Below are positions 3,726 to 20,132 of a stretch of DNA of 20,132 nt, in pieces. The notes under the pieces were generated by a model. The model was not told the DNA's origin, did no database searches, and saw only the letters and a list, made by a program, of their open reading frames with translations. Every line of letters starts with the position of its first letter. Positions within the stretch are counted from its first letter, which is position 1. The stretch is from Candidatus Desantisbacteria bacterium CG1_02_49_89 (GTDB taxonomy: Bacteria; Desantisbacteria; UBA1551). The translations under genes and the position numbers were made by a program. Location: the NCBI GenBank assembly GCA_001871075.1, contig MNUP01000077.1, forward strand, positions 1-20,132. Direction: 5' to 3'.

Positions 3726-4187
3726 ATGGAAAGAAGCCTGATAATAATTAAGCCCGATGCCGTGTGCAAGGGCAGGATAGGTGAGGTTATTGGGCGCATT
3801 GAGAAAAAAGGTTTCATAATACGCGCGCTGAAAATAGTACGCCTTACAAAGAAAAAAGCTGAAGAATTCTACGGGATTTACAGGGGCATGCCGTTCTTCA
3901 AAGGCCTTGTCAAATTCATGATTTCGGCCCCGTCGGTCATGATGGTGGTGGAAGGCAGGGGTGTTATAAAGAAAATGAGGGAAATGATAGGCGCGAGAGT
4001 GCCTTCAGAAGCAAAAAAAAGAACTATAAGGGGCGACCTGGCTTCAGACGACAGGCGCAATATAATACACGGCTCTGATTCAAGAAAAAACGCGGCGCGG
4101 GAAATAAAGATATTTTTCAAGCCAAATGAGATATATAAATATGATAAGAAAGACTGGCTGAACAGCGAGCCTGATAGAAACAGTTAA
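3726..4187 (+). CDS. ndk: Nucleoside diphosphate kinase
   Basis: Transfers the gamma-phosphate of ATP to nucleoside diphosphates through a phosphohistidine, keeping NTP and dNTP pools balanced in the cytoplasm. The N-terminal RSLIIIKPDAV is the family signature. NIIHGSDS carries the catalytic histidine H115, and TIRGDL binds nucleotide. At 153 residues it is slightly longer than the usual 135-150, with a lysine-rich tail ending in EPDRNS. The ATG has AGGAG at 3716-3720, 5 nt upstream. The stop codon lies inside the first 7-bp word of the tandem repeat at 4182, so the last residues may be repeat-derived. Confidence 0.95.
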   Translation: MERSLIIIKPDAVCKGRIGEVIGRIEKKGFIIRALKIVRLTKKKAEEFYGIYRGMPFFKGLVKFMISAPSVMMVVEGRGVIKKMREMIGARVPSEAKKRTIRGDLASDDRRNIIHGSDSRKNAAREIKIFFKPNEIYKYDKKDWLNSEPDRNS

Positions 4188-4216
4188 AGGTTAAAAGTTA
4201 AAGGTTAAAAGTTGAA
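4182..4216. repeat. Five tandem 7-bp words at the ndk stop codon
   Basis: AGTTAAA, GGTTAAA, AGTTAAA, GGTTAAA and AGTTGAA follow without gaps. The ndk stop TAA (4185-4187) lies in the first word. Unlike the other spacers, no complementary right arm is present before the next start at 4244. Confidence 0.85.
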
Positions 4217-4243
4217 GACAAAACATGGAATTATGGTGGAAAT

Positions 4244-5074
4244 ATGGCATATAAAATATTGGAAAAAGAAGAACTGGCGCCGGGGATAAAACAATACGAT
4301 ATTCACGCTCCCCGGGTCGCGGAAAAATTCAAGCCCGGGCAGTTCCTGGTCATACGCCTGCATGAAAAAGGGGAAAGGATACCGCTTACCATAGCCATGG
4401 CAGACGCGCGCGCGGGCAGTGTCAGGATCGTGTTCCAGGAAATGGGCAAGACCACTTTTGAACTGGGGGCTATGAACAAAGGGGACAGTATAATGGATGT
4501 TCTCGGTCCTCTCGGAGTTCCCACGGAAATAAAAAAATACGGCCTTGTCGCAGGTGTGGCAGGAGGGGTCGGCGCCGCGCCGCTTCTTCCCATATTGAAA
4601 GCGCTTAAGGAAACAGGCAACAGGGTCATTACAATACTCGGGTCAAGGACAAAGGACCTGCTTATTTTCCGCAGGGAACTTGAGAAGGTGAGTAGCGAAC
4701 TCATAATAACCACGGACGACGGGACCGCGGGTGAAAAGGGATTCGTTACTTTTCCCCTGAAAAGGATCATTGAAGGCAAGAACAAGCCGGACGCTGTATG
4801 GGCGATAGGCCCTTTGATAATGATGAAGAATATCTGTAACGTGACAAGGAACGACGGGGTCAGAACGTTTGTAAGCCTGAACCCGATCATGCTGGACGGA
4901 ACAGGGATGTGCGGCTGCTGCAGGGTCACTGTCGGCGGGCACGTTAAGTTTTCCTGCGTTGACGGGCCGGAGTTTGACGGCCTTATGGTCGATTTTGACG
5001 AGATCATCGTCCGCAACAGGCGTTTCCTTGAACAGGAGCGTATTTCATACGAAAAGTATAAAAATAGTTTATAG
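4244..5074 (+). CDS. nfnA: Ferredoxin:NADP oxidoreductase subunit NfnA / sulfide dehydrogenase SudB type
   Basis: The FAD and [2Fe-2S] subunit of an NfnAB-type enzyme, which couples NADH, NADPH and ferredoxin by electron bifurcation. The same fold serves as the SudB subunit of sulfide dehydrogenase. The 276-residue length fits. An FAD-binding beta barrel is seen at residues about 1-95, with the flavin motif RIPLTIA. The nucleotide-binding GVAGGVGAAPLLPI follows near 105. The C-terminal cluster region DGTGMCGCCRV carries C223, C225 and C226, with C238 in FSCVDGPEFDG. SD GGTGG precedes the ATG. The gene lies directly upstream of the partner nfnB, as is usual. The last two codons and the TAG stop lie in or next to the 9-bp word repeat at 5066. 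Confidence 0.88.
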   Translation: MAYKILEKEELAPGIKQYDIHAPRVAEKFKPGQFLVIRLHEKGERIPLTIAMADARAGSVRIVFQEMGKTTFELGAMNKGDSIMDVLGPLGVPTEIKKYGLVAGVAGGVGAAPLLPILKALKETGNRVITILGSRTKDLLIFRRELEKVSSELIITTDDGTAGEKGFVTFPLKRIIEGKNKPDAVWAIGPLIMMKNICNVTRNDGVRTFVSLNPIMLDGTGMCGCCRVTVGGHVKFSCVDGPEFDGLMVDFDEIIVRNRRFLEQERISYEKYKNSL

Positions 5075-5184
5075 AGTTTACATAGTTTATGTAGTTTACA
5101 AAGTTAAGGATAGGGAAAATTATAAATGTATAGTTCATTACATATACTCTGTAAACTCTGCAAACTTTGTAAACTATGTAAACT
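5066..5184. repeat. Word-arm palindrome between nfnA and nfnB (9-bp words)
   Basis: The left arm is four 9-bp words, AGTTTATAG, AGTTTACAT, AGTTTATGT and AGTTTACAA (5066-5101). The right arm (about 5146-5184) is the complementary series, of the type TGTAAACTN, also with 9-bp period. About 45 bp separates the arms. The first word contains the nfnA stop TAG, and the right arm ends 5 bp before the nfnB ribosome binding site. Confidence 0.9.
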
Positions 5185-5198
5185 AATCTGGAGTTAAA

Positions 5199-5708
5199 AT
5201 GGAAAGCCGGCAGGAAATGCCCAGGCAGGAACCTGGTAAAAGAATAAAAAACTTCAAGGAAGTTGCTTCCGGATACACCGAGGAACAGGCTCTTAAAGAG
5301 GCATCCAGGTGTATTCAATGCAAGAAACCGACCTGTAAAGCGGGTTGCCCTGTTGAGATCGAGATACCTGAGTTCATAAAAGCTATAGCCGAAAAGGATT
5401 TTGCCAAAGCAATTGAGATCATCAAGCAGAAGAACAGCCTTCCCGCGGTATGCGGCAGGGTCTGCCCGCAGGAGAGCCAGTGCGAGAAGGTATGCGCGCT
5501 TTCGAAAAAATACGGGTCTGTGGCGATAGGCCGCCTGGAGCGTTTTGTTGCTGATCTGCAGATCAGCAACAGTATCAACGTGTCCCGCCCAACAAACGTT
5601 GGCGGGCAGGCGCCGTGTCAAAGTGTCAAAGTAGATAAAACGAAGGACGATGCACGATGCACGATGTTACGAAGGTTGCTATCGTGGGCTCTGGGCCCGC
5701 GGGCCTGA
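5199..5708 (+). CDS. nfnB: NfnB/GltD-type subunit, N-terminal iron-sulfur part (frame broken)
   Basis: First part of the NADPH-binding subunit of NfnAB, also called the GltD-like small subunit. It carries two four-cysteine sets for [4Fe-4S] clusters: C38, C41, C46, C50 and C85, C89, C95, C99. The homologous part ends at about residue 124, GRLERFVADLQ. The remaining 45 residues are encoded by repeat DNA and by the wrong frame of the downstream flavin domain, ending in a stop at 5706. The FAD and NADPH domains continue in another frame from 5657. GGAG at 5190-5193 supports the ATG. Either the gene is frameshifted, or the two parts are made as separate chains. One extra copy of the 7-bp repeat at 5647-5666 would fuse them into a 482-residue protein. 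Confidence 0.8.
   Translation: MESRQEMPRQEPGKRIKNFKEVASGYTEEQALKEASRCIQCKKPTCKAGCPVEIEIPEFIKAIAEKDFAKAIEIIKQKNSLPAVCGRVCPQESQCEKVCALSKKYGSVAIGRLERFVADLQISNSINVSRPTNVGGQAPCQSVKVDKTKDDARCTMLRRLLSWALGPRA
5546..5666. repeat. Repeat insertion inside nfnB
   Basis: Four repeat structures are packed here. A perfect 26-bp palindrome centred on CTGCAG spans 5546-5571. An imperfect hairpin, CCCGCCCAAC / GTTGGCGGG, spans about 5584-5609. Two copies of the 8-bp word GTGTCAAA lie at 5615-5630. The 7-bp word ACGATGC repeats 2.9 times at 5647-5666. The DNA replaces the linker between the iron-sulfur and flavin domains. Confidence 0.8.
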
Positions 5709-6640
5709 CATGCGCGGGGGACCTCGCGAGAATGGGTTACAGGGTTACTGTATTTGAATCCCTGCATTCCACAGGGGGCGTGCTCAGGTACGGCATACCC
5801 GAATTCCGCCTTCCGAAAGCAATACTGGATTTTGAAGTGGAAAGTATTAAATCCCTGGGTGTTGAAGTGAAGGTAAACGCGTTGATAGGCGGGAGCTATA
5901 CTCTTGAAGACCTGTTCAAAGAAGGTTATAAGGCTGTTTTTATAGGGACAGGAGCGGGCCTTCCTTATTTTATGGGAGTAAAAGGCGAGAACCTGAACGG
6001 CGTGTATTCAGCCAACGAATTCCTGACAAGGGTTAACCTTCTGAAGGCGTATGAATTCCCGGAATACGACACGCCGGTCAAAATAGGGAAAAAGATCGCG
6101 GTGATAGGCGCGGGGAACGTGAGCATGGACTGCGCGCGCGTTTCCCTGCGGCTCGGTGCAGAGGAGTCATGGATCGTTTACAGGCGCTCGGACGCTGAAA
6201 TGCCCGCGAGGGCGGAGGAGATAGAGAACGCGAAGGAAGAAGGGGTCAAATTCAGCCTGCTCACGCTTCCTGTTGAGGTTTTGAGCGACGGAAAGAGCGG
6301 AGTGAGAGCTTTGAGATGCATAAAAATGAAACTCGGTGAACCTGACCAAAGCGGCAGGAAAAGGCCTGTTCCTATAGAAGGCTCCGAGTTCGACATGGAT
6401 ATTGACACCGTGATAGTTGCAATAGGCCAGGGCCCGAACCCGCTCCTGCCGAGGAAAACGCCGGATCTGAAAGTGACAAGCCATGGGAATATAGTTGCCG
6501 ACCCCCAAACCGGAAAAACATCGATAGAAGGGGTTTATGCAGGCGGGGACATTGCCACAGGCGCGGCAACGGTCATAGAAGCAATGGGCGCGGGAAAACG
6601 CGCCGCCAGAGCGATTGATCAATACATAAAGAAATTATGA
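5657..6640 (+). CDS. nfnB: NfnB/GltD-type subunit, FAD and NADPH domains
   Basis: Second part of the NfnB subunit, 327 residues. The FAD-binding motif VAIVGSGPAGL lies near residues 7-17. The NADPH site is KKIAVIGAGNVSMDCA with YRRSDAEMPAR, near 150-190. The closing FAD motif GVYAGGDIATGAATV lies near 295. The frame differs from that of the upstream iron-sulfur part, and the two overlap by 52 nt. The ATG has AAGGA at 5643-5647, 9 nt upstream, so separate translation is possible. Both halves keep all key motifs, which argues against long-standing decay. The stop TGA lies across the first two 7-bp words of the repeat at 6633, so the final lysine-leucine codons overlap the repeat. Confidence 0.85.
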   Translation: MHDVTKVAIVGSGPAGLTCAGDLARMGYRVTVFESLHSTGGVLRYGIPEFRLPKAILDFEVESIKSLGVEVKVNALIGGSYTLEDLFKEGYKAVFIGTGAGLPYFMGVKGENLNGVYSANEFLTRVNLLKAYEFPEYDTPVKIGKKIAVIGAGNVSMDCARVSLRLGAEESWIVYRRSDAEMPARAEEIENAKEEGVKFSLLTLPVEVLSDGKSGVRALRCIKMKLGEPDQSGRKRPVPIEGSEFDMDIDTVIVAIGQGPNPLLPRKTPDLKVTSHGNIVADPQTGKTSIEGVYAGGDIATGAATVIEAMGAGKRAARAIDQYIKKL

Positions 6641-6737
6641 ATTATGAATGATGAATTATGAATCAAAGGCATAAGGATTTTATTTGAAATAAATTCCTTG
6701 CAGTTGACTCATAACTCATAATTCATAACTCATAATT
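6633..6737. repeat. Word-arm palindrome between nfnB and purH (7-bp words)
   Basis: The left arm is AATTATG, AATTATG, AATGATG, AATTATG (6633-6660). The right arm is CATAACT, CATAATT, CATAACT, CATAATT (6710-6737). The spacer carries AAGGATTT and AAATTCCTT as an inner inverted repeat. The nfnB stop TGA lies across the first two words, and the purH ribosome binding site AGGAGG starts 8 bp after the right arm. Confidence 0.92.
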
Positions 6738-6754
6738 GATTTTCAGGAGGAATA

Positions 6755-8344
6755 ATGCCAAAGATAAAACGGGCGCTTATAAGCGTGTCGGATAAAACAG
6801 GGCTGGTAGATTTCGCGAAGGGCCTGCAGGAGATGGGCGTGGAAATACTTTCCACCGGAGGCACGGCAAAACTGCTTGAAAAGGAAAAGATAAAAGTAAA
6901 GGAAGTTGCGGAATACACCGGATTCCCGGAAATGCTGGATGGAAGGGTGAAAACCCTGCATCCCAGGATACACGGAGGGCTTCTCGCCCTGCGCAATAAC
7001 CCGGACCACATGAAACAGCTTAAAAAAGAAAAGATAGGCCTTATAGACATGGTGGTAGTTAACCTTTATCCTTTTGAGAGCACCATAGCGAAACCCGGAG
7101 TTAAGCTTGAGGAAGCGATCGAGAATATTGATATCGGCGGGCCTTCAATGCTGCGCTCGGCAGCGAAGAACCACCAGAGCGTGATAGTGATCTGCACACC
7201 CTCCCGCTACCAGCAGATCCTTGAAGAACTGCGCAAGCATAAAGGAGACATTCCCCTGCAGCTCAGAGAGGAGCTTGCGGCAGAGGTATTCAGGCTGACC
7301 AGCAATTATGACACGGCGATCCATAATTACCTCGATATGAAATTCAGGATAAAAGAGGAAGGTTTCCAAACATCCGAGCTCAGCTTCCCGAGTTTCCTAG
7401 GGTTAAAGTTTGAAAAGATCCAGGAGCTGCGTTACGGCGAGAACCCGCACCAGAAGGCTTCGTTCTACAGGGACCTGGCTGCGAAAGGCCCGAACCTCGC
7501 GGGCGCCAAACAGCTGCACGGCAAGGAGCTGTCATTCAATAATATATATGATATGCACGCCGCGTTTGAAAACGTAAGGGATTTTGAGGAACCGACAGTG
7601 GTCATAATCAAGCACAATAACCCATGCGGAGTCGCGTCAGCGAAAGACCTTTTATCAGCTTACAAGGACGCCCTTGACTGCGATCCGCTCTCGTCTTACG
7701 GTTCGATAGTGAGCGTCAACAGGGAAATGGATGCCGCGGCCGCGAAGGCGATGATGGATCTGTTCATAGAGGTTATACTGGCGCCTTCGTATTCAAAGGA
7801 AGCGCTTGAAATACTGAAAGGAAAGAAAAACCTCAGGATCATGGAAGTTCCCGCGCTTAACCCGGCGCTGCGCAGGCAGATCTCAATGGGCCTTGATATC
7901 AAGAAAGTCAGCGGCGGGATCCTGGTGCAGGAGCCGGACGAGAAGGATTTTGACCCGAAGAGCCTCAGGGTTGTTACAAAAACCGAGCCTGCGAAAGAAG
8001 ACATAAAGTCGCTTCTTTTCGCCTGGAAGGTGGCAAAGTTCCTCAAGTCAAACGCCATAGTGCTTGCCCAGGGCACAAAGACCGTGGGCATAGGCGCGGG
8101 CCAGATGAGCCGCGTGGATTCGGTTATGCTTGCCGTGACAGAAGCAAGAGATAAAGCGAAAGGCTCAACCCTGGGTTCGGACGCGTTCTTCCCGAAGGCG
8201 GACGGAGTTGAAATGGCAGCGGAAGCAGGGGTAAAGGCGATAATCCAGCCCGGCGGCTCCATTGCTGACGAAGAAATTATAAAAGTCTGCAATGACAACA
8301 ACATAGCAATGGTGTTTACCGGAGTCCGTCACTTCAGGCATTGA
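6755..8344 (+). CDS. purH: Bifunctional AICAR transformylase / IMP cyclohydrolase
   Basis: Catalyses the last two steps of IMP synthesis: formylation of AICAR with 10-formyltetrahydrofolate, then ring closure. The 529-residue length is close to the usual 510-530. The N-terminal cyclohydrolase domain (about 1-200) starts RALISVSDKTGL and has STGGT and GRVKTLHPRIHGGLL. The transformylase domain has RYGENPHQ and the catalytic K286-H287 pair in KHNNPCG. A later signature is GSDAFFPKADGVE, and the end is VFTGVRHFRH, as in the family. AGGAGG at 6745-6750 sets the ATG. No other purine genes are adjacent. GlyA and MnmE downstream also use folate one-carbon units, but that may be coincidence. Confidence 0.96.
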   Translation: MPKIKRALISVSDKTGLVDFAKGLQEMGVEILSTGGTAKLLEKEKIKVKEVAEYTGFPEMLDGRVKTLHPRIHGGLLALRNNPDHMKQLKKEKIGLIDMVVVNLYPFESTIAKPGVKLEEAIENIDIGGPSMLRSAAKNHQSVIVICTPSRYQQILEELRKHKGDIPLQLREELAAEVFRLTSNYDTAIHNYLDMKFRIKEEGFQTSELSFPSFLGLKFEKIQELRYGENPHQKASFYRDLAAKGPNLAGAKQLHGKELSFNNIYDMHAAFENVRDFEEPTVVIIKHNNPCGVASAKDLLSAYKDALDCDPLSSYGSIVSVNREMDAAAAKAMMDLFIEVILAPSYSKEALEILKGKKNLRIMEVPALNPALRRQISMGLDIKKVSGGILVQEPDEKDFDPKSLRVVTKTEPAKEDIKSLLFAWKVAKFLKSNAIVLAQGTKTVGIGAGQMSRVDSVMLAVTEARDKAKGSTLGSDAFFPKADGVEMAAEAGVKAIIQPGGSIADEEIIKVCNDNNIAMVFTGVRHFRH

Positions 8345-8355
8345 TTTCAAAATTA

Positions 8356-8464
8356 CCACAGAGGCACAGAGTAGGGCAAGGCTTTAGCCTTGCTTAAACC
8401 GCAATCCTGCTTGCTTGTCATTGCGACCCGCCGGTATTCAGTATTCGTGGCGGGGAAGCAATCT
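8356..8464. repeat. Repeat-filled spacer after purH
   Basis: Three pieces are present. CCACAGAGGCACAGAG lies at 8356-8371. A perfect 18-bp hairpin, GCAAGGCTTTAGCCTTGC, lies at 8376-8393 and has no strong T run after it. A left half of the TGTCATTG family lies at 8416-8464, with an inner CCCGCC / GGCGGG hairpin and an AAGCAATCT end. Confidence 0.7.
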
Positions 8465-8487
8465 ATTTTAATAGGTTGGAGGAATTA

Positions 8488-11400
8488 TTGCGTTCAAGGT
8501 CGTTAACTATCCTTTTACTTTTATTATGCCTGCCTGCTATTTCCGCAAACGCGCAAAAATCCCCGGTTTTTTCCTGCCAGGATAACTTTTCAAATTATAA
8601 TGACGGAAGCGACGGTTCTCCGGCGTGGATCACGAGTTCAGCCGGATGGGGAGTGAGCAAAGGCGTTTTTTCATGCGACGATCCGGACAAGCAGTTTGCC
8701 GTGCTCAGTTCTCCTCTGCTGAAAAAGTTCTTTATCGAAGCCCGGCTTACCATACGCGAAAAGACGGGTTCTGACTGGAAGATAGCCGGTATTTCCGTTT
8801 TCGTAGATGAAAAAAACTACTGGCACCTTGCTCTTGCGGAAAAACCGGACAGCGCGGGCGGCGGGCATTTCGTTGAGCTTGTTGAAATGTACGACAACGC
8901 CTGGCTTTCCCAGTCGATCACCCTGACAAAGCTGACGCCGCTGGCTTCAAAAGGGGGGAGTTTCAACTGGGAATATAACCATCCCTATATTTTAAGGATA
9001 GAGATGGCAGATGAGACAATTACCGGTTTCGTGAAGGAACTGGACGGCACAATAAGGTCAAAACTCGGTTTCAGGTTCAATAACGAAAAAGCGGTGAAAT
9101 ACGGCAAGCCCGCCCTTGACAACGGCAGTTTCAGGGCTGAGTTTGACGATTTCTCGGTTAAAGCAGAGGAAGATATGAAATCAGCGGTTGAAGATGCAGG
9201 AAAACCGTCTTTTGCCCCTTATGAAAGCAGGGGATGGGAAGGATTGAAAGGAAAGGCATCGGGATTTTTCCGCGTTGAACAGGCCAAAGGGACCTGGTGG
9301 GTGATAGACCCTTTCGGGAACGCTTTCTACATAATCGGCACAGACCATGCAAGTTTTAAGGTGCACTGGTGCGAAAAACTCGGTTACGCCCCTTACAGCA
9401 GGAACTGCGAGAAGATATACGGCACCGAGGAAAAATGGTCTGACAGCACTGTAGGGCGGTTGCTTTCCTGGGGATTCAACAGCCTGGGAGCGAACAGCTC
9501 TTTGTTTATCAGGCACAGGGGACTTGCTCACACAGAGATCCTGGGCATGGGAACAATGTTCGCAGGAATGGAGAACATAACCCCGCGCACAACCTGGACA
9601 GGATTCCCCAATGTCTTCAGTTCCAGGTTCGAGAAATACTGCGATAAGCTGGCGCAGAAGATATGCGCTCCTGTCAAAGATGATCCCTGGCTGATCGGGT
9701 ATTTTATTGACAATGAACTGGAGTGGTATGGCACAGCAGGAAAGGGTATCTTTGATGATGCTTTTTCAAAGCCGGCTGAGAACAGCGCAAAGAAAGCAAT
9801 TGTTGAAATGCTGATAAATAAGTATAACAAAATCAATATGTTTAATGAAGCGTGGGGAACCAATCTTTATAAGTTTGAAGAGCTTTATGAGCTTAAAAAG
9901 CTTCCCGGGTCAGCAAGCCCGCAGGCACAGGCTGATAGAAGGGATTTTATCCGGCTTGCAGCTGAAAAATACTTCTCAATTACGTCTGCAGCGATCCGCA
10001 GGCATGACCCTAACCATATGGTGCTTGGGTGCAGGTTCGCGGGTTCAGCCCCTGACGTATGGGACATAGCAGGCAGGTACTGCGATATTGTCAGCGTGAA
10101 CTGCTACAGGACAGTTGACCTGGAGAAAGGCATACTGGCAGACGGGTTTGAAAAAGACCTTGCAAGCTGGTACGGATCAGCAAAGCGGCCGATGATGATA
10201 ACAGAGTGGAGTTTTCCGGCTCTTGACGCCGGGCTTCCCTGCAAGGGCGGGGCAGGGCAGCGGGTCCCGATACAGAAGGACAAGGCATTCGCGTTCACGG
10301 TTTTCCAGAAGCTCCTTTTCGCGACGCCGTTCTTAGTGGGTTCGGATTATTTCATGTGGGCAGACGAGCCGGAGCTGGGAATATCCAAGACATTCCCGGA
10401 GGATTCAAACTACGGGCTTGTGAACGTGAATGATGAGCCGTATACTCTCCTGACCCGGGCGGCAACTGACCTGCACCAATACGTTTATACGCTTCACAGC
10501 AGGAATGCGCCGGAGATCTCCGTAAGGCCGGGCAAAGAGAAGGGATCTTTTGAAATAAGTAACTCCGGCGAAACAGACGCTGCCTGCTCGATAGAGATAA
10601 TTATGGACGGAAAAGTTATCGAGCAGAGGAAGGAAACGATAGGCGGCAACAAGAGCGTTGAGTTAAAAGCAACCTATTCTTTTATTCTTGCGCCCGGAGG
10701 CCATCTGCTTGCGTGCAAGGCGAAACCTGAAAACGAGTTCCTTGAACTGGACAGGACTAACAATATAGCGACGCAGGTATTATACGTTCCCGGCGCTGCC
10801 TGGTGGGACAAGGCGCAGAAAAATAGTTCAGAGCGGCTTCCTTTTGTTATCTGCAATTTTTCGGATAAAACCGTCAAGGACGCGAGCGTTATATTAAAAA
10901 CGCCGGACATCTACCCGTTCCTGCAGAAGGCAAAAAAATTAAGCGTGGTTTGCGCGTCAGCGTCAGGCGTAATAAATGAGATCGCGCCTTTCCAGGCCAG
11001 GCCGGCAGAAGGGGAGATAGCCGTTTTCGCGAATGAGATAAAGCCAATGGAATGCGCTACGTTTTACCTGTATAACGGGAACCTGGCTGCAGTCCAGCCC
11101 CAGAGATCAAAGATTGAGTATAAAAAAGAAGGTGACGTTTTCGGCGCGGACAACGGGGTAATGAAATTTTACAGGACTGACGCGGCAAAAGGGAATGCTT
11201 TTGACAGGATCGAGCTGAAAGGCATTGAGCTGGGAAGGTTCACGCCGCTGGTGTGGCAGAAGGTGGGCCAGAACATGTGGATCGGCCCGGATAGCGTGGA
11301 GAATATAGAGATCAACCACGGCCCGGTCTTCCTTTCTTTCGACATGACGTTTTCTTTTTCCCGCGGCGGGAGCGAGATGAAAACAGAGGTTGACAGCAAA

Positions 11401-11877
11401 GGCAATTACGCTTCCATGACCAGCCGCCCGCACAGTTTTCGCGCGAAATACAGGATAACGATCTTCCCTGAAAAACAATATTTTTCAAGCAGGATGCTGT
11501 GGATCGAGAATACCGACAAAGAACCCTGGGAACTGGGTGCTTATTACCACTACCTTGTCTCGAACATAAACGGCAGCGTGAAGGACGATGAGGCAAGGGG
11601 AACAAAATGGTTTGATCCCGGAACCGGCATATCTTTCGGCGCAGCGGCATTCTCGCCCGAGATAAAGATAACGTTCTGGAAAGACCCGGGCGGGACAGAG
11701 CATCCGGATACCTGGCGCGAGGTCGGCAAAATGTTGAAGCCGGGTGAGCGATATTCGGACCCCCAGCCCGAAGTTTATATTATCGCGGCAAAAACCGAAG
11801 GGGAGTGGAAGGAAATAATTGATTCCATCAAGTTCCATTCCGCGCTCTCAGCCCAGTCCTTTCCCATAGAAAAATAA
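8488..11877 (+). CDS. Large secreted clan-A glycoside hydrolase (agarase/GH50- or GH42-like)
   Basis: Predicted exported polysaccharide- or oligosaccharide-hydrolysing enzyme, about 1129 residues. I chose TTG 8488 over the in-frame TTG 8476 because GGAGG at 8478-8482 lies 5 nt before it. The signal peptide is then MRSRSLTILLLLLC, ending ANA-Q near residue 22. Residues about 25-225 look like a concanavalin-type beta sandwich. The catalytic barrel spans about 255-660, opening with GTWWVIDPFGNAFYIIGTD. E410 in YFIDNELEW is the likely acid/base and E573 in MITEWSF the likely nucleophile. Residues about 674-770 resemble a CARDB/Ig-like domain with FLELDRTNN. The remaining 350 residues are beta-rich and unrecognised. 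The family assignment is uncertain; GH50-like agarases are the nearest match I recall. No sugar transporter or other hydrolase is adjacent. Confidence 0.75.
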   Translation: MRSRSLTILLLLLCLPAISANAQKSPVFSCQDNFSNYNDGSDGSPAWITSSAGWGVSKGVFSCDDPDKQFAVLSSPLLKKFFIEARLTIREKTGSDWKIAGISVFVDEKNYWHLALAEKPDSAGGGHFVELVEMYDNAWLSQSITLTKLTPLASKGGSFNWEYNHPYILRIEMADETITGFVKELDGTIRSKLGFRFNNEKAVKYGKPALDNGSFRAEFDDFSVKAEEDMKSAVEDAGKPSFAPYESRGWEGLKGKASGFFRVEQAKGTWWVIDPFGNAFYIIGTDHASFKVHWCEKLGYAPYSRNCEKIYGTEEKWSDSTVGRLLSWGFNSLGANSSLFIRHRGLAHTEILGMGTMFAGMENITPRTTWTGFPNVFSSRFEKYCDKLAQKICAPVKDDPWLIGYFIDNELEWYGTAGKGIFDDAFSKPAENSAKKAIVEMLINKYNKINMFNEAWGTNLYKFEELYELKKLPGSASPQAQADRRDFIRLAAEKYFSITSAAIRRHDPNHMVLGCRFAGSAPDVWDIAGRYCDIVSVNCYRTVDLEKGILADGFEKDLASWYGSAKRPMMITEWSFPALDAGLPCKGGAGQRVPIQKDKAFAFTVFQKLLFATPFLVGSDYFMWADEPELGISKTFPEDSNYGLVNVNDEPYTLLTRAATDLHQYVYTLHSRNAPEISVRPGKEKGSFEISNSGETDAACSIEIIMDGKVIEQRKETIGGNKSVELKATYSFILAPGGHLLACKAKPENEFLELDRTNNIATQVLYVPGAAWWDKAQKNSSERLPFVICNFSDKTVKDASVILKTPDIYPFLQKAKKLSVVCASASGVINEIAPFQARPAEGEIAVFANEIKPMECATFYLYNGNLAAVQPQRSKIEYKKEGDVFGADNGVMKFYRTDAAKGNAFDRIELKGIELGRFTPLVWQKVGQNMWIGPDSVENIEINHGPVFLSFDMTFSFSRGGSEMKTEVDSKGNYASMTSRPHSFRAKYRITIFPEKQYFSSRMLWIENTDKEPWELGAYYHYLVSNINGSVKDDEARGTKWFDPGTGISFGAAAFSPEIKITFWKDPGGTEHPDTWREVGKMLKPGERYSDPQPEVYIIAAKTEGEWKEIIDSIKFHSALSAQSFPIEK

Positions 11878-11887
11878 ATCCCTGTCA

Positions 11888-11994
11888 TGTCATTGCGAGC
11901 CGAAGCCGCGAGCGAAGCGTGGCGGGACGAAGCAATCTGTATTGTAGCGGTCCGATGTATCGTCGCACTTGTAGGGGCTCGATTTATCGAGCCC
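11888..11994. repeat. Left half of TGTCATTG repeat plus a hairpin
   Basis: TGTCATTGCGAG opens a half element that ends in AAGCAATCT at 11938. A separate hairpin, GGGCTCGATTTATCGAGCCC, follows at 11975-11994 with a 9-bp stem. Neither is followed by a T run. They begin the 595-bp gene-free stretch 11878-12472. Confidence 0.75.
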
Positions 11995-12036
11995 GAAATC
12001 CTTTTGCTCCCCCCTGCGCCTGTATAATATAATCGA

Positions 12037-12156
12037 AAATTGACCCACTTAGGCGGTAGTTGTAGTTGAAATTTGATCCACCCTGCAATATAATTTCGGA
12101 ATTTAGGTGGGTCAAACCGGATTACAACATGGGTCAAAATGACATTACAATTGACA
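12037..12156. mobile_element. Fragment resembling an IS21-family terminus
   Basis: Repeated copies of a TTTGACCCA-like word occur in both orientations: TTGACCCACTTAGG at 12040, TTTGATCCACCC at 12072, and on the minus strand near 12102-12116 and 12131-12139. The minus-strand end reads TGTCAATTGTAATGTCA. IS21-family ends often carry several such TTTTGACCC repeats next to a TG terminus. No transposase gene is present, so this is at most a solo end or a miniature element. Confidence 0.4.
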
Positions 12157-12184
12157 CCTCGTAGGTTGGAATGGTTGCCGAAGG

Positions 12185-12209
12185 ATCCGTCTTTAAGACG
12201 GATTTTTTT
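12185..12209 (+). terminator. Intrinsic terminator
   Basis: ATCCGTCTT and AAGACGGAT form a 9-bp stem with a minimal loop, followed directly by seven T residues. No gene ends just before it. It may stop read-through from the glycosidase gene 300 bp upstream, or belong to the element remnant beside it. Confidence 0.75.
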
Positions 12210-12217
12210 GTTTTTCC

Positions 12218-12246
12218 TTGCATTTTTATTTAATTTAGTATATAAT
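12218..12246 (+). promoter_or_regulatory. Promoter-like sigma-70 site
   Basis: TTGCAT and a perfect TATAAT are separated by 17 bp, in an AT-rich stretch just after the terminator. It could serve the small ORF and nucleotidyltransferase genes about 220 bp downstream. The -35 matches consensus at only three of six bases, and the local AT richness makes a chance match possible. Confidence 0.35.
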
Positions 12247-12298
12247 ATATAAGTCTAAATAATTTGAGAAAGTATAATATAGTGGCTGGCAGGTTTGT

Positions 12299-12417
12299 TC
12301 CGATGGAATCCCTTTGGGACAATCCGTCGTTGCGAGCCGAAGCCGCGAGTGAAACGTGGCGGGCAAGCGAAGCAATCTCGTATCTGGATTGCTTCACCCT
12401 TCGGGTTCGCAATGACA
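12299..12417. repeat. Composite copy of the TGTCATTG/CAATGACA repeat family
   Basis: Carries modules seen at 2185 and 11888 in a new order: GGAATCCCTTTGGGACAATC, then GCGAGCCGAAGCCGCGAG and AAGCAATCTCG, then the right end CTTCGGGTTCGCAATGACA. It lies between the promoter-like site and the small ORF at 12473. Confidence 0.8.
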
Positions 12418-12472
12418 TGTTGGTTGGAATTTAATATTGCAGAGTACCAAGAACTTCCGGAGTGTGAAATAA

Positions 12473-12685
12473 ATGAAAAAATATGTTTCTGAAGAAAAAG
12501 AATGGCTGGAACTGAGCCCGAAGCAGAGAATAAAAGAGCAAACTATGCTCTGGCAGATATACATGTCCCTTGGAGGTAGCCTTGATCCGGAACCCGATCC
12601 TCAAAGTCCTTTTTACTTTCCGGAAATTCGGTGTAAAAAGCCTTCTGATCGGAGGGCAGGCGTGCATTATCTACGGCGCCGCTGA
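12473..12685 (+). CDS. Small protein of unknown function overlapping a nucleotidyltransferase gene
   Basis: Seventy residues, MKKYVSEEKEWLELSPKQRI and so on, with no signal peptide or membrane segment. I do not recognise a named family. The central stretch LGGSLDPEPDPQSPFYFPE reads like a conserved motif rather than random sequence. The tail, RRAGVHYLRRR, is dictated by the overlapping gene. GGAG at 12459-12462 lies 10 nt before the ATG. The next gene starts inside it at 12582, with its ribosome binding site formed by the Gly-Gly codons. The pairing with a small nucleotidyltransferase suggests a two-gene functional unit, possibly of the toxin-antitoxin kind, but it does not look like a HEPN protein. 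Confidence 0.65.
   Translation: MKKYVSEEKEWLELSPKQRIKEQTMLWQIYMSLGGSLDPEPDPQSPFYFPEIRCKKPSDRRAGVHYLRRR
12572..12576 (+). promoter_or_regulatory. Ribosome binding site inside the small ORF
   Basis: GGAGG lies 5 nt before TTG 12582 and decides the start of the nucleotidyltransferase. It is formed by the GGA GGT codons of the upstream protein's LGGS motif. Confidence 0.65.
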
Positions 12686-13319
12686 ATTCAGCAGGGATTC
12701 AGATTTCGCGGTCCTCTGTGACGCGGAGAATATCAAAAGACTAAAAAAAGCCCTGCGGTCTCTAAAGGCAAAAAATATCTATGTCCCGCCTTTGGAACAA
12801 AGCTATCTTAAGACGGGACACGCCTGCCATTTCAGGTGTTCCGGCAGGCCGGTTAAAAATTTCAGGGTTGACGTGATCTCGAAACTCAGGGGCTGCGGGA
12901 GTTTTGAAGAATTATGGGACCGGAGATTCATTTTGAGGGTTGGGAAAAACATAAGCGTTGATATAATCAGCATAGAAGACCTTGCAAGAAGCAAGAAGAC
13001 CCAGAGGGATAAGGACTGGCTGATGCTGAACAGGCTGGTTCTGAGCGATATGTCAAGGACCAAAAGACCGTCAGAAGAAAAAAATAAATGGTGGCTGCTT
13101 GAATGCAGGGACAGCAAGGTTCTTATAAACCTGTCAGGAAGTAACAAGGCCCTGGCAAAAGAGTGCCTGGTTGAAAGGCCGTTGCTGAAAGCAGCTTTAA
13201 CCGGACACGCGGCAAAACTGGACGCTCAGCTCAGGCAGGAGGAAAAAAAGGAGCGGGAGGATGACAGAAAATACTGGAAACCTTTGTTAAAGGAACTTGA
13301 AGTTTTAAGGCATAATTAA
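12582..13319 (+). CDS. Nucleotidyltransferase-fold protein
   Basis: A protein of about 245 residues with a minimal nucleotidyltransferase core. LLIGGQACIIYGAAEFSRDS is followed by a D-x-D pair at D39 and D41 that would bind metal. It would transfer a nucleotide to a protein, RNA or small-molecule target; the target is unknown. RVDVISKLRG near residues 95-105 may supply the third acidic residue. The C-terminal third is lysine- and glutamate-rich and may be helical. TTG 12582 is preferred over the in-frame TTG 12570 because GGAGG lies 5 nt before it. The gene overlaps the small ORF by 104 nt, implying translational coupling. It resembles the MNT-like or abortive-infection class, but the usual HEPN partner is absent. 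Function is not established. Confidence 0.7.
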   Translation: MIRNPILKVLFTFRKFGVKSLLIGGQACIIYGAAEFSRDSDFAVLCDAENIKRLKKALRSLKAKNIYVPPLEQSYLKTGHACHFRCSGRPVKNFRVDVISKLRGCGSFEELWDRRFILRVGKNISVDIISIEDLARSKKTQRDKDWLMLNRLVLSDMSRTKRPSEEKNKWWLLECRDSKVLINLSGSNKALAKECLVERPLLKAALTGHAAKLDAQLRQEEKKEREDDRKYWKPLLKELEVLRHN

Positions 13320-13363
13320 CACTTTGATCTGTTTAAAAATTACTGAGATCAGGAGTTGAGAAA

Positions 13364-14602
13364 ATGGATGCGATTTCAAGGCAAGATCCGATAGTCGGAA
13401 AGATCCTGAAAAACGAGATGAAACGCCAGCAGGAAAACCTGATCATGATCGCTTCAGAGAATTACGTGAGCCCGGCTGTGCTTGAGGCGCAGGGATGCAT
13501 AATGACGAATAAATACGCCGAAGGCTATCCGGGGAAACGCTTCTACCAGGGCTGCGGCAATTACGACAAGGTTGAGTCGCTCGCTATCAGCAGGGCAAAG
13601 AAGCTTTTCGGCGCTGAGCACGTGAACGTCCAGCCGCATTCAGGTTCCCAGGCGAATATGTGCGTGTATTTCGCGGCCCTGAAACCAGGTGATAGAATAT
13701 TATCCATGAGGCTTGACCAGGGCGGGCATCTTACCCACGGACTCAAGTCGAATTTCTCCGGAAGGGCGTACAGGTGCGCGTTTTACGGTGTGAGCAAGAA
13801 AACCGAGACCATTGATTACGATGAGGTTATGAGGATCGCGAAGAAATTCAGGCCGAAACTGATAGTTTGCGGGGCAAGCAGTTATCCCAGGATCATTGAT
13901 TTCCGAAGGTTCAGGCGGATCGCCGACAAATGCGGCGCTATGCTGATGGCTGATATCGCGCATATAGCGGGCCTTGTTGTCGGGGGAGTGCATCCGAACC
14001 CTGTTTCTTACTGCGATTTCGTTACGACTACCACCCACAAAACCCTAAGGGGCGGAAGGGGCGCGATAATTATGTGCAGGAAAAAATACGCGGATGCAAT
14101 AGACAGGGCTGTTTTCCCAGGGACACAGGGCGGCCCGCTCATGCACGAGATAGCCGCAAAAGCTGTTGCTTTCGGGGAAGCAATGAGCCCGAAGTTCAGG
14201 CTGTACCAAAAAAATATAGTAAGGAACGCAAGGATCCTTGCAATAGCGCTTCTTGGCAGCGGCATACGGCTTATTTCACGCGGCACAGACAACCACCTGA
14301 TGGCAGCCGACGTATCGGGTTTTGGCATTGACGGAAAAAAGGCGGCAGCGATCCTTGAAGAAGCCGGCATCGTGGTTAATAAGAACCAGATACCTTTTGA
14401 CAGGCTCCCGCCTACACGTACAAGCGGGATACGCATCGGAACTCCCGCAATAACAAGCAGGGGGATGGGCCCTAAAGAGATGATCCTGATAGCAAGCTGG
14501 ATCAAGCGGGTTCTCATGCGCCCGGGTAATAAAAACCTGCGCGTAATGATCAAAAAAGAAGTAAAGAAGCTGTGCGCGCGCTTTCCAATATACAGTAAAT
14601 AA
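13364..14602 (+). CDS. glyA: Serine hydroxymethyltransferase
   Basis: A pyridoxal-phosphate enzyme that converts serine and tetrahydrofolate to glycine and 5,10-methylenetetrahydrofolate, the main entry of one-carbon units. The 412-residue length is normal. The N-terminal [19 protein letters not shown] and [14 protein letters not shown] are family signatures. [15 protein letters not shown] and [14 protein letters not shown] follow, with K226 as the PLP-binding lysine. The usual THKTLRGPRGG reads [11 protein letters not shown] here, a mild variation. AGGAG at 13351-13355 lies 8 nt before the ATG. It is followed by mnmE, whose product consumes methylenetetrahydrofolate, with a word-arm palindrome between the two genes. 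Confidence 0.95.
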
Positions 14603-14603
14603 C

Positions 14604-14702
14604 AATTATGAATTATGAGTTATGAATTATGAGTCAAGGAATTTAGTTTAAAATAAAACTCCTTGTTGTTGATTCATAACTCAGCATTCATAATTCATAA
14701 TT
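14604..14702. repeat. Word-arm palindrome between glyA and mnmE (7-bp words)
   Basis: The left arm is AATTATG, AATTATG, AGTTATG, AATTATG (14604-14631). The right arm is CATAACT, CAGCATT, CATAATT, CATAATT (14675-14702). The inner inverted repeat is CAAGGAATTT / AAACTCCTTG. The left arm begins 1 bp after the glyA stop, and the right arm ends 4 bp before the mnmE ATG. Confidence 0.92.
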
Positions 14703-14706
14703 AATT

Positions 14707-16086
14707 ATGGAAAAAATACAAAATGATACTATTGCGGCAATAGCGACACCTGTGGGCGAAGGCGGTATAGGGATAATACGCCTCAGCGGCTCTGGTTCTT
14801 TGAAGATCGCGGACGGCATCTTCGAAGGAAAACACGGCAGGAACAAACCTTCCGGGTTCTTGACTTATACAACGCATTACGGGCTTATACGCGACAAGAG
14901 CGAAAAGATCGATGAGGTGATACTCACGGTTATGCGCGCTCCCAAAACCTACACGCGTGAGGACGTTGTTGAGATAAACTGCCACAGCGGCATTGTCCCC
15001 TTGCGGAAAATACTTGAGCTTGTGCTGGCAAGGGGCGCCAGGATCGCGGAACCGGGTGAATTCACGAAAAGGGCTTTTCTGAGCGGCAGGATCGACCTGA
15101 GCCAGGCTGAAGCGGTCGCGGATGTTGTGCGCGCGAAGACCGACCTGAGCCTGAAAGCCGCGATGGGGCAGCTTCAGGGAGGGCTGTCAAAAAAGATCAG
15201 CTCTGCGCGGGCCGGGCTCCTGAACCTGCTTGCGGACATAGAAGCTTCAATTGATTTTCCTGAGGAAGATACCGGGGATGTGCCGGGAAACATGCTCGCG
15301 GGAAAGCTTGACCAATGCAGGATCGAGCTTGAAGGCCTGCTTAAGACATTTGACGCGGGAAGACTGCTTAAAGAAGGGGTTTCAGCCGCGATAATCGGGC
15401 GGCCTAACGTAGGCAAATCGTCTCTGTTGAACTGCCTGGTGGGAAAGGAAAGGGCGATAGTGACTTCCGTGCCCGGGACCACAACAGATACCATAGAAGA
15501 AACAATGGATGTCGGAGGGGTCCATATCAGGGTTATTGACACTGCAGGCATAGGCCGCAGGGGTAAAAGACCCGGGATCATTGAGGCAGAGGGGATAAGG
15601 AGAGCGGGCAGAGTTATGGAGGTTTCACAGCTGCTTTTGCTTGTCCTGGACGGCTCGCAGCCGCTGAAAGCTGAGGACAGGAAGTTACTCGGCAGAATAA
15701 AAAATAGGAAAGCCATCATACTTATAAACAAGATAGATCTTCGACAAAAGATAAAATCGAAAGACCTGCAAACCGCGCATCCGGCCATAGAGATCTCGGC
15801 AAAGAAAAACAGGAACATAGACAAGGTCCGCGCGCAGATAAGCAGGGAAGTCTGGGGCGGAAAGATCGATTTTACCGGAGACGCGGTGCTTACGAGCATA
15901 AGGCATAAGAATGAGATCGGATCCGCAGTGAAGAATCTGCGGTCTGCCGGAAGCTCAGCCGGTTCGGCTGAGCTTGCTTCAATGGATATCAGGGAAGCAA
16001 TTAACGCGCTCGGCAGGATAACAGGCGAAACAATAACCGAAGATATCCTGGACAGGATCTTCGACAAATTCTGCATAGGTAAATGA
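14707..16086 (+). CDS. mnmE: tRNA modification GTPase MnmE
   Basis: With MnmG it installs the (carboxymethyl)aminomethyl group on U34 of certain tRNAs, using methylenetetrahydrofolate and GTP. The 459-residue length is normal. The folate-binding N-terminal domain starts DTIAAIATPVGEGGIGIIRL. A helical middle domain follows. The G domain has GRPNVGKSSLLN near 230-241, DTAG at 278 and NKID at 341. The C-terminal FCIGK includes the cysteine typical of the family. The G2 loop reads PGTTTD rather than the usual GTTRD. No ribosome binding site is visible; the DNA before the ATG is the right arm of the repeat. mnmG is not in the window. Confidence 0.95.
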   Translation: MEKIQNDTIAAIATPVGEGGIGIIRLSGSGSLKIADGIFEGKHGRNKPSGFLTYTTHYGLIRDKSEKIDEVILTVMRAPKTYTREDVVEINCHSGIVPLRKILELVLARGARIAEPGEFTKRAFLSGRIDLSQAEAVADVVRAKTDLSLKAAMGQLQGGLSKKISSARAGLLNLLADIEASIDFPEEDTGDVPGNMLAGKLDQCRIELEGLLKTFDAGRLLKEGVSAAIIGRPNVGKSSLLNCLVGKERAIVTSVPGTTTDTIEETMDVGGVHIRVIDTAGIGRRGKRPGIIEAEGIRRAGRVMEVSQLLLLVLDGSQPLKAEDRKLLGRIKNRKAIILINKIDLRQKIKSKDLQTAHPAIEISAKKNRNIDKVRAQISREVWGGKIDFTGDAVLTSIRHKNEIGSAVKNLRSAGSSAGSAELASMDIREAINALGRITGETITEDILDRIFDKFCIGK

Positions 16087-16094
16087 GCAGTAAA

Positions 16095-16188
16095 TATTGT
16101 GAGATTTTAAGATTTAAGATTGTAAGATTGTTTAAAAATAATTCAACTTCTTTTCACTCTCACAATCTTACATCTCACAATCTTCAAT
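16095..16188. repeat. Word-arm palindrome between mnmE and the oxidoreductase gene (about 8-bp words)
   Basis: The left arm (about 16098-16131) runs TGAGATTT, TAAGATT, TAAGATTG, TAAGATTG. The right arm (about 16158-16187) is the complementary series built from CTCACAATCTTA. The period is mostly 8 bp and less regular than in its sisters. Here the arm starts about 11 bp after the stop codon rather than inside it. Confidence 0.85.
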
Positions 16189-16210
16189 AGCAAGCTCTGC
16201 GGGGGTTGGT

Positions 16211-17155
16211 GTGCTGAAGCTGGGAGTAGCGGGGTATGAGGGGCATGGCCAGGCTTTTACTGAGGCGCTTAACGGAACAGAACTCGGTGATAAGCTGGGA
16301 ATGAAAGTAGCCGTGATCTGGCAGGACCCTGACAATAAAAAATCCCATGAGAACATGCTTTCGGCAAGCGACAAGCTGGGTTTCCAGGTCGCGCACACCC
16401 TGAAGGAACTTGAAGAGGGGAATGACGGCATAATAATAGGGGAAGAACGCCCGACAAGGTATCTTGAGCTGGCAAAGCCGTTCATGCAGAAAAAATTGCC
16501 CACTTTTATAAACAGGCCGGTCGGGGCAAGCGTAGGTGACGCAGGAGCCATTTTTCATATGGCAAAGAATTACAGGACACCGATACTTACCGGCTCTTCT
16601 CTTGTTTTTGACCCGGTTGTGCGCAACCTGATAACCGAGGTGGAAGCATTTAAGCCGATACAGCTCTTTTATGATACAGGGCCCACTAATTTCGTAAATT
16701 TCTATTTGCCGCACGTCATAAGCGTTGCGGTTACCGTGTTCGGCGCCGGTGTTTTACAGGTCCGCTGCCTTGCGCTTGAATGGGATGAGCCCGGATGGAC
16801 CTGCAAGGGAAGCATCATTGCCAGCGTGGAATATTCGGACAAGGCAAAATACCCTGGGCTGCACGGCATAATAGCGCAGGTCCCTGACCCGGTTAAGAAC
16901 TGGTACGGCTTCAGGCTGAAAGTATTCGGGGCAGGCGAATCGCAGGAATACAACACATACCAGTCGCACGGCTGGCAGGAGATACTTGAAGCGTTCAAGC
17001 AGGTCATTGAGACCAAAAAACCGGTGATACCCGAAGAAGAGGCTATGGAAGTGCCGAAGATATATTACGCGATACTGAGGAGCGCGTCTGAAAGGCGGCC
17101 GATACAGCTTTCCGAGTTTGACGACGAGATAAAAGACAGGATATGGATGCTTTGA
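16211..17155 (+). CDS. Gfo/Idh/MocA-like oxidoreductase
   Basis: A predicted cytoplasmic NAD(P)-dependent sugar or cyclitol dehydrogenase-like protein of 314 residues. The N-terminal MLKLGVAGYEGHGQAF is a Rossmann nucleotide-binding start, and a beta-alpha second domain follows. The family's EKP motif, with its catalytic lysine, appears as N101-R102-P103 in TFINRPVGAS. The lysine is therefore replaced by arginine, and dehydrogenase activity is uncertain. The start is GTG 16211 with a G-rich stretch (GGGGG) about 6 nt upstream. The gene is followed by a UroD-like gene and a PfkB kinase, which suggests a small catabolic group. The substrate cannot be read from the sequence. Confidence 0.75.
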   Translation: MLKLGVAGYEGHGQAFTEALNGTELGDKLGMKVAVIWQDPDNKKSHENMLSASDKLGFQVAHTLKELEEGNDGIIIGEERPTRYLELAKPFMQKKLPTFINRPVGASVGDAGAIFHMAKNYRTPILTGSSLVFDPVVRNLITEVEAFKPIQLFYDTGPTNFVNFYLPHVISVAVTVFGAGVLQVRCLALEWDEPGWTCKGSIIASVEYSDKAKYPGLHGIIAQVPDPVKNWYGFRLKVFGAGESQEYNTYQSHGWQEILEAFKQVIETKKPVIPEEEAMEVPKIYYAILRSASERRPIQLSEFDDEIKDRIWML

Positions 17156-17159
17156 TTCC

Positions 17160-17204
17160 AAATAAAAGTTAAAATTCAAATTGCAAAATGTAAATTTCAA
17201 ATTG
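17160..17204. repeat. Short direct word repeats in the spacer
   Basis: AAATTCAAATTG is followed by AAATTTCAAATTG, with AGTTAAA and CAAAATGTA between. It resembles the tandem-word spacers but lacks a clear complementary arm. The UroD-like gene's AAGGA lies just after it. Confidence 0.5.
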
Positions 17205-17216
17205 AAGGAATAAAAT

Positions 17217-18359
17217 ATGACATCGAAAGAAAGAATGCTGACAGCGATGCGGAACAAACAGCCGGATATGGTGCCGGTCGCGCCGGATATGTCCAACATG
17301 ATCCCCGCGAAACTTACAGGAAAACCTTTCTGGGACATATACCTGTACAGGAATCCGCCATTATGGAAGGCGTATATAGATACGGTAAGGCATTTCGGCA
17401 TCGACGGATGGCTGGCCAGTATTGACGGGCAGATCTTTGATGATTATCCCCAGCCCGGCTACAAGACGGAAAACGTCATTGTTTTCAGGAATGAAGAGCG
17501 GATAATAACCAGGGTGTATTCAGAAAAAGAAAAAGGGAAAAAAGAATGGTCCGATTTCATAACGGTATATTACGTGAAAGACCCGCCGACCTACCTTAAA
17601 GCCTCGAAGATAGGGATGCAGGCCCCGCCTGAAAAATGGTGGCAGATCGAGGGGGTAAAGCCGGAAAAAAAGGATGAAGCGCTCCTGGCTGAGGTTAAGG
17701 AATATATGGGCGATGACGGCGTGTCCGCGGTGGGATGCTGCCCGCCCCAGCTGAGCAACCCGGAAGGCGGCGGTTACTCGGTTTTTGACTATTACGACAG
17801 GTACAAAGAAGTAAAGGAGTGGAGCGAAAGGGCCACGGAGGACATCCTCAAACGCCTTAGAAAGGTCCTGTCTTCCCCGTCAAGGCCGGATTTCATACTT
17901 ACAGGCGGTTCCGGTATGCTTGTTTTTATGACTCCGAAAATAGTGCGCGATATTTCGTTCCCGGCGCTGAAAAAAATAACTACAATGTGCAAGGATGCGG
18001 GCGTCCCCACACAGATCCACTGCTGCGGGCCAGAAAGAGCGCTTGTGGAGATGTGCGCCAATGAAACAGACCTTACTTCCATAAATCCGCTGGAGATCCC
18101 GCCTATGGGGGACTGCGACCTTGCCGAGATAAAGAGATCATTCGGGAAGAATCTTTCCCTGATGGGCAACCTGCATACTACGGAAGTCATGCTGCGTGGA
18201 AAAGTCGCGGATGTTAAAAACGCCTCAAAGAAAGCGATTGACGATGCTGCCGCGGGCGGCGGGTTCTTGTTATCCACAGGTGACCAGTGCGGCAGGGATA
18301 CACCCGAGGAAAATATTTTCGCGATGGTGGAAACAGCGCGGTCTTATGGTAAATATTAG
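17217..18359 (+). CDS. Uroporphyrinogen decarboxylase (URO-D) family protein, probable methyltransferase type
   Basis: A 380-residue TIM-barrel protein of the URO-D superfamily. It starts TSKERMLTAMRNKQPDMVPV, as do the corrinoid-dependent methyltransferase and uncharacterised catabolic members rather than haem-synthesis HemE. The H-x-C motif, H268-C269-C270-G, and a late cysteine, C358 in STGDQCGRDTP, match the zinc-ligand pattern of MtaA/MtbA-like methyltransferases. LMGNLHTTEVMLRG is also typical. No corrinoid protein gene is adjacent. It follows the Gfo/Idh-like gene by 61 bp, and a PfkB gene follows. Its last codons and TAG stop abut the repeat at 18358. Confidence 0.82.
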   Translation: MTSKERMLTAMRNKQPDMVPVAPDMSNMIPAKLTGKPFWDIYLYRNPPLWKAYIDTVRHFGIDGWLASIDGQIFDDYPQPGYKTENVIVFRNEERIITRVYSEKEKGKKEWSDFITVYYVKDPPTYLKASKIGMQAPPEKWWQIEGVKPEKKDEALLAEVKEYMGDDGVSAVGCCPPQLSNPEGGGYSVFDYYDRYKEVKEWSERATEDILKRLRKVLSSPSRPDFILTGGSGMLVFMTPKIVRDISFPALKKITTMCKDAGVPTQIHCCGPERALVEMCANETDLTSINPLEIPPMGDCDLAEIKRSFGKNLSLMGNLHTTEVMLRGKVADVKNASKKAIDDAAAGGGFLLSTGDQCGRDTPEENIFAMVETARSYGKY

Positions 18360-18456
18360 TTATGAATTATGAATGCTGAGTTATGAATCAACTGCAAGGA
18401 GTTTAAATTTTAAATAAATTCCTTGACTTATAATTCATAACTCATAATTCAGCATT
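18358..18456. repeat. Word-arm palindrome between the UroD-like gene and pfkB (7-bp words)
   Basis: The left arm is AGTTATG, AATTATG, AATGCTG, AGTTATG (18358-18385). The right arm is TATAATT, CATAACT, CATAATT, CAGCATT (18429-18456). The spacer carries CAAGGAGTTT and AAATTCCTTG as an inner inverted repeat. The first word overlaps the TAG stop (18357-18359). The right arm ends 5 bp before GGGAG, the pfkB ribosome binding site. Confidence 0.92.
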
Positions 18457-19400: not shown

Positions 19401-19425
19401 CTTCGCGAAAGGATATGAAACTATA

Positions 19426-19470
19426 TTGACACTGATATTCACTGATTTTATCTGTGTAAATCAGTGTCAA
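19426..19470. repeat. Inverted repeat upstream of the HEAT-protein gene
   Basis: TTGACACTGA and TCAGTGTCAA form a perfect 10-bp stem around a 25-bp loop that repeats the words CACTGAT and TCTGTGT. No T run follows. The HEAT gene's AGGAGG lies 22 bp downstream. Confidence 0.75.
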
Positions 19471-20087: not shown

Positions 20088-20132
20088 ACTCAAAGCAGAA
20101 TCAAATGTCAAGGGATTTATGCGACACCATAC

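Follow-up and report, generated by a model that had tools for sequence, protein, structure and literature searches.

Facing arrays of short tandem words behind stop codons: dispersed inverted repeats whose arms may be edited in concert

Inverted repeats built from short tandem words lie at many gene ends of one bacterial genome and recur in other phyla, and we propose, at what we judge an even chance of being right, that these are dispersed STRR-type repeats that settle at gene ends and whose arms are later edited by slippage and template switching. The window, by which we mean the whole 20,132-nucleotide stretch of DNA analysed, belongs to a genome of 2.48 Mb assembled in 150 contigs, of which it is number 54. 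An initial annotation had described five two-armed spacers and a one-armed sixth (4182) with words of 7, 9 and about 8 bp, and all six were found again in the window sequence, together with arrays that it had overlooked:

4182..4217, + strand: lone arm, GTTAAAG/GTTAAAA words of 7 bp repeated about five times, partner arm absent
5064..5105, + strand: left arm of 9-bp AGTTTACAN words, which includes the preceding gene's stop codon
5106..5145: middle of the AGTTTACAN element, from reading the sequence
5146..5184, - strand: right arm of the AGTTTACAN element, complementary 9-bp words, from reading the sequence
5615-5666: GTGTCAAA and ACGATGC arrays within a gene, previously overlooked
6633..6663, + strand: left arm of 7-bp AATTATG words, the third being AATGATG, with the upstream stop codon inside
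6664..6706: shared palindromic core (CAAAGGCATAAGGA...TCCTTGCAGTTGA) of the AATTATG element, from alignment of copies
6707..6738, - strand: right arm, complementary AATTATG words, terminating before the purH ribosome binding site
about 8357: CACAGAGG array, previously overlooked
14604..14634, + strand: left arm of AATTATG words, abutting the glyA stop codon
14635..14671: shared AATTATG-element core, inverted relative to the cores of the 6633 and 18360 elements
14672..14702, - strand: right arm, complementary words, one being AATGCTG, from alignment of copies
16096..16131, + strand: left arm of ATTGTAAG words of about 8 bp, with the mnmE stop codon 9 bp upstream
about 16160..16190, - strand: right arm of the 16096 element, complementary words CTCACAATCTTACATCTCACAATCTTC, from reading the sequence
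17170..17204, + strand: lone AAATTGC array (7-bp words) 14 bp downstream of a stop codon, previously overlooked
18360..18388, + strand: left arm of AATTATG words, the third being AATGCTG, abutting a stop codon
18389..18425: shared AATTATG-element core, oriented as in the 6633 element
18426..18456, - strand: right arm, complementary words including AATGCTG, from alignment of copies
19425-19470: CACTGA-word array, previously overlooked

Three of the six annotated spacers have the upstream stop codon within the array (4182, where it belongs to an ndk-like gene, Pfam NDK, 5064 and 6633), two have it abutting the array (14604 and 18360) and one has it 9 bp away (16096), which corrects the earlier count of four of six with arms starting inside or across it. 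The middle TCAACnGCAAGGA..TCCTTGA is common to the three AATTATG spacers (6633, 14604 and 18360), which are therefore copies of one family. Two genes of the window are each read as two frames. The glutamate-synthase-small-subunit-like gene has its Fer4_20 domain at 5199-5708 and its Pyr_redox_2 domain at 5657-6640, with the GTGTCAAA and ACGATGC arrays sitting exactly where the frames meet, and seems to have been split by word insertion; the pfkB-family kinase gene (18473-19400) consists of the overlapping frames 18473-18778 and 18741-19400, which suggests a frameshift. A second dispersed palindrome, GTCATTGCGAG..GAAGCAATCT, is present in the window at 2181-2312, 8415-8470, 11880-11940, 12300-12420 and 20000-20090.

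The same layout, between stop codon and ribosome binding site, is found elsewhere in the genome. A census of a 591-kb sample, taken as stretches, gave 342 word arrays in 213 loci (207 once merged), with more than 15 word types, periods of 7-10 bp and four as the most frequent number of words per array; 19 of the 207 loci fall within reading frames. The word types include AATTATG, AGTTTACAN, GTGTCAAC, GTTAAAG, ATCCGTGGNN, CACTGANNN and GTCGTAC, as well as GTCATTA, CAAATTG, CACGAAAG, ACAAGTA, AATAGAGC, ACGATGC and CACAGAGG. These arrays are not products of chance, since period counts in the sample far exceed expectation (TTATGA at period 7, 99 observed vs 0.33 expected; AGTTTA at period 9, 53 vs 0.08; GTGTCA at period 8, 38 vs 0.05) and the 13-mer TTATGAATTATGA has 150 copies in the 2.48 Mb against none for its reversed control. 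Copies are dispersed in both orientations. The nearest relative available for comparison shares only the order with this genome; none of these words was found in 159 kb of a same-order relative (G001), and CACAGAG was the sole clear tandem word of such kind in 300 kb of genome G202. Hairpins of AATAGAGC words with unequal arms appear clustered round tRNA genes (L034 and L036, for example L036:13818-14620 and 18133-18399), and five ATCCAGG words stand in frame in a variable stretch of an apparent leucyl-tRNA synthetase gene (L042:11670-11710).

Within the window's genome the AATTATG copies align to a single consensus of about 100 bp, composed of the arms and a palindromic core (TCAACnGCAAGGAATTT..AAATTCCTTGnnGTTGA), whose halves are unequal, the third word tending to AATGATG or AATGCTG in one half. 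Half-cores of this element also adjoin arms of other words (GTGTCAAC, ATCCAGG, CACAGGTTAA). Once each word had been given a left or right direction manually, on the basis of pairs in which both arms carry it, 41 of 51 same-word pairs less than 120 bp apart face inward (left-right), as do 29 of 56 different-word pairs at that distance, among which 5 face outward (right-left). Many loci join arms of unrelated words that cannot pair, and some loops of tandem-word hairpins contain REP-like palindromes.

The AATTATG hairpin is also found far from this genome. Scanning GTDB genomes with the pattern TTATGAATTATGA N25-55 TCATAATTCATAA returned at least 116 matching stretches, mostly from Bacteroidota among the matches listed, which also included Chloroflexota, Acidobacteriota, Planctomycetota, Hydrogenedentes and one gammaproteobacterium. 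The 13-mer TTATGAATTATGA reaches 165 copies in Parabacteroides PF5-6, 112 in Hymenobacter actinosclerus, 114 in a Hydrogenedentes bin and 72 in an Anaerolineae bin, and its reversed control was absent from all nine genomes searched. The middles of these hairpins are unrelated from genome to genome; in Parabacteroides the arms are near-perfect and the inner loops close to random (identity 0.67 vs 0.55 shuffled). Carriage by phages was rejected, the pattern occurring in only 3 stretches on 2 contigs among 2.9 million viral contigs.

Gene ends, as delimited by simple longest-ORF calls, are the favoured site of these elements. Of 122 stop-side edges outside the window's genome, 98 are no more than 10 bp from the stop codon and 117 no more than 30 bp, and between co-directional genes the median distance is +3 bp to the upstream stop and +15 bp to the next start. 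Where at least 60 bp of other sequence is left, the stop is the nearer gene end for 16 of 21 elements. Divergent gene pairs are under-used in these genomes, with 9 (8-9) of 107 elements vs 108 of 541 background gaps (20%). In the window's genome, with all words counted, the stop-side distance is 10 bp or less in 80 of 178 cases.

Coupling between the two arms was assessed by swapping partners. In the window's genome true partners score 24.1 in complementarity vs 29.0 for swapped ones, with the true mean reached by every one of 2000 permutations; the cause is the inequality of the family's two halves. In Parabacteroides swapping the partners makes no difference, the arms being uncoupled beyond their shared words. 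In the other genomes, words besides AATTATG/AGTTATG are common to both arms 45 times vs 4.9 after swapping (0 of 5000 permutations), and, as genome word usage confounds swaps across unrelated genomes, these were dropped and the comparison redone within groups, giving 27 shared variant words vs 15.8 with swaps restricted to related genomes (0 of 5000 permutations). The annotated idea that words spread while the arms are kept complementary thus applies to other genomes, by these counts and by the paired changes described below, but not to the window's genome, with its less complementary partners and mixed-word pairs. G.U mismatches on the transcribed strand are as common as A.C ones (41 v 40; 22 v 23), so selection for RNA pairing is not visible, and the RNA role raised by the initial annotation is not supported.

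Comparison of orthologous gene junctions, which that annotation had called for, revealed turnover of the word itself. Among the first 116 loci, about nine pairs are bordered by orthologous genes in different species, with arm identities of 0.86 and 0.81, and 0.52 for loops vs 0.41 for unrelated loops. AGTTCTG..CAGAACT in one Hymenobacter species corresponds to AATTATG..CATAATT in another, and over 22 species pairs 32 double changes are still paired vs about 8 expected under independence, an expectation that takes no account of the word's hypervariable A/G position. At the ftsA-ftsZ junction of Hymenobacter a hairpin is retained in all 17 readable junctions (fold z < -2 in all, median -5.3), with a period of 7-8 bp in most and at least six word types, AATTATG, AGTTGTG, ATTTAAC, ATGTTGA, TTAAATGG and AAATGGCT among others. 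In one Hymenobacter species (L295) a GTCATGCTGAGGAACGAAGCATC palindrome, which resembles the window palindrome GTCATTGCGAG..GAAGCAATCT, replaces the word hairpin at this junction.

At the rpsM-rpsK junction, conserved flanks enclose a plain hairpin whose sequence is free in most Hymenobacter species, and a long tandem-word hairpin takes its place in a few. The flanks, GTAGCGGGAATC..CAACACCTTCCGC, are conserved in the genus (L261-L290), and the hairpin with its flanks might be an unlisted structured RNA of a ribosomal protein operon; the loci searched gave no Rfam match at threshold. No clean pair of filled and empty sites was found, the wordless rpsM-rpsK sites still bearing the plain hairpin. 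In Rikenellaceae the loop GTCTTTGCTCGG..GCGGCGAAGCCCC is common to L091 and L173 in opposite orientation, an apparent inversion that was kept out of the evidence as one flank alone is orthologous.

Among known element classes, these repeats come closest to two. The STRR of filamentous cyanobacteria likewise consist of tandem words, about 7 bp long and present in many intergenic copies, and can form hairpins, as can the window elements and the orthologous junctions; Nostoc STRR heptamers with hairpins lie between genes of the same operon, such as hupS-hupL (PMC2670836), and ttgtcagttgtcagttgtca is listed 44 times (PMC2408588). A single word of the window's genome, GGTTGTC, resembles csR1.1 of the latter report when compared with the published consensus. 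Unlike STRR, the elements described here occur in another lineage, one genome of which has over 15 types of word with lengths of 7, 8, 9 and 10 bp; measured in addition were the fixed polarity of the two facing arms, pairs that mix words, docking at stop codons and concerted change of the arms. The second class comprises classes 1-3 of Geobacter metallireducens, three to five tandem repeats of 7-8 nt in opposite-strand pairs at variable distance and in many copies (PMC2700814). The window's genome has the same layout of tandem words in opposite-strand pairs with variable spacing, but the insertion sequences found at a fixed distance from Geobacter class 1 sites (PMC2700814) were not seen here. 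Nostoc STRR and the Geobacter metallireducens pairs are the same kind of thing as these hairpins.

The elements also share features with MITEs and REP/BIME palindromes, which are small, dispersed, non-coding intergenic inverted repeats that also form mosaics, and the AATTATG elements have the inverted terminal repeats and many copies of a MITE. They differ from these classes in that no target duplication or matching transposase was found and in that, in other genomes, the arms are kept while the middle changes. The test for target duplication gave 2.95 bp vs 2.84 bp for swapped flanks over 21 elements; no transposase lies within the elements, and no word-associated enzyme was noticed at the loci read, the genome-wide search covering Y1 genes only. 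RAYT/REP was rejected as a mobiliser, as several of the ten Y1 transposase genes in the genome are flanked by other palindromes. All this bears out the earlier remark that the spacers are not like a normal insertion sequence. The Y1 genes at L077, L078 and L079 (contigs 23 and 111) are flanked by the serial palindromes CAAACCTGAAGGTTTGAGTTACG and CCTCAACTTGTTGAGG, relatives of which occur in tandem-word hairpin loops elsewhere in the genome. Intrinsic terminators, with a GC-rich stem and a T run, were rejected too, no terminator-like site being found at the elements, and Rfam matches all fell below the gathering score.

The main rival explanation is a selected intercistronic mRNA hairpin, in which a stem behind the stop codon would be kept for mRNA stability, coupling or termination while the sequence of the words is free; it covers the position of the elements and the persistence of hairpins. 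The shortage between divergent genes, the folding of every ftsA-ftsZ junction despite differing words, the hairpin at most rpsM-rpsK junctions with words or none, and the excess of paired double changes all agree with it. We consider it rather unlikely, however, given the balanced G.U and A.C mismatches, the many loci of the window's genome that combine non-pairing arms and the lack of terminator-like features; moreover, pairing alone leaves the tandem words, and the same word across phyla, unexplained.

A further reading, by analogy with the one published for the same layout in Geobacter metallireducens, where the sites were proposed to bind a global regulator, IHF/HU (PMC2700814), would take the arrays as sites for DNA-binding proteins. 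The word itself is indeed kept beyond pairing, in ordered arrays of about four, but word and period vary by locus, by species at one junction, and over more than 15 types per genome, so many different proteins would be needed, and we regard this reading as improbable. Origin in place, by slippage and quasipalindrome correction at each site without dispersal, would explain the turnover of words and the concerted arms at orthologous sites; it is contradicted by identical words at 100 or more places per genome and by the same word in several phyla, is strongly disfavoured by the core common to the AATTATG copies of the window's genome, and appears to us just as improbable.

Dispersal followed by editing is the reading that we prefer. 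An element would be a pair of inward-facing arms on either side of a loop, with some four AT-rich words of 7-10 bp in tandem per arm, and it would spread within a genome either whole or as one half, presumably by transfer of DNA. Gene ends, directly behind stop codons, would be almost the only places where it settles or survives, the cost there being lowest and an intercistronic hairpin being able to form. Slippage within an arm would then add and remove words, and the polymerase, by switching templates between the arms, would copy variants across, so that both arms come to share them while the loop drifts. PMC8604942 outlines how the switching of templates between inverted repeats makes the arms alike and flips the spacer, and tandem words, matched arms, free loops and matched multi-base changes are what such switching predicts. 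Dispersal is required in addition because words are shared at 100 or more places and the copies in the window's genome share a core. In that genome spread may outpace editing, which would leave one family consensus, unequal halves and free mixing of arms with different words. Copy number, dispersal in both orientations, position, co-variation, loop divergence and word turnover at orthologous junctions were observed directly; slippage was not, since adjacent identical variant words number 13 vs 11.8 in a within-arm shuffle, which is no excess.

As far as the literature searched shows, novelty lies in the polarity of mixed-word pairs, in the docking at stop codons measured in several phyla, in arms that change in concert and in the turnover of words at an orthologous junction. 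More tentatively, the hairpins could constitute a word-writing class present in many phyla, in which copying tied to gene ends would write words into both arms, match the arms in concert and replace the word between species, without a mobilising enzyme of its own. In some bacteria such repeats occupy many intergenic gaps; scattered reports of them go back decades and share no agreed explanation, and the ftsA-ftsZ and rpsM-rpsK junctions of Hymenobacter make the choice between spread of DNA, writing by replication error and selection of mRNA hairpins directly testable.
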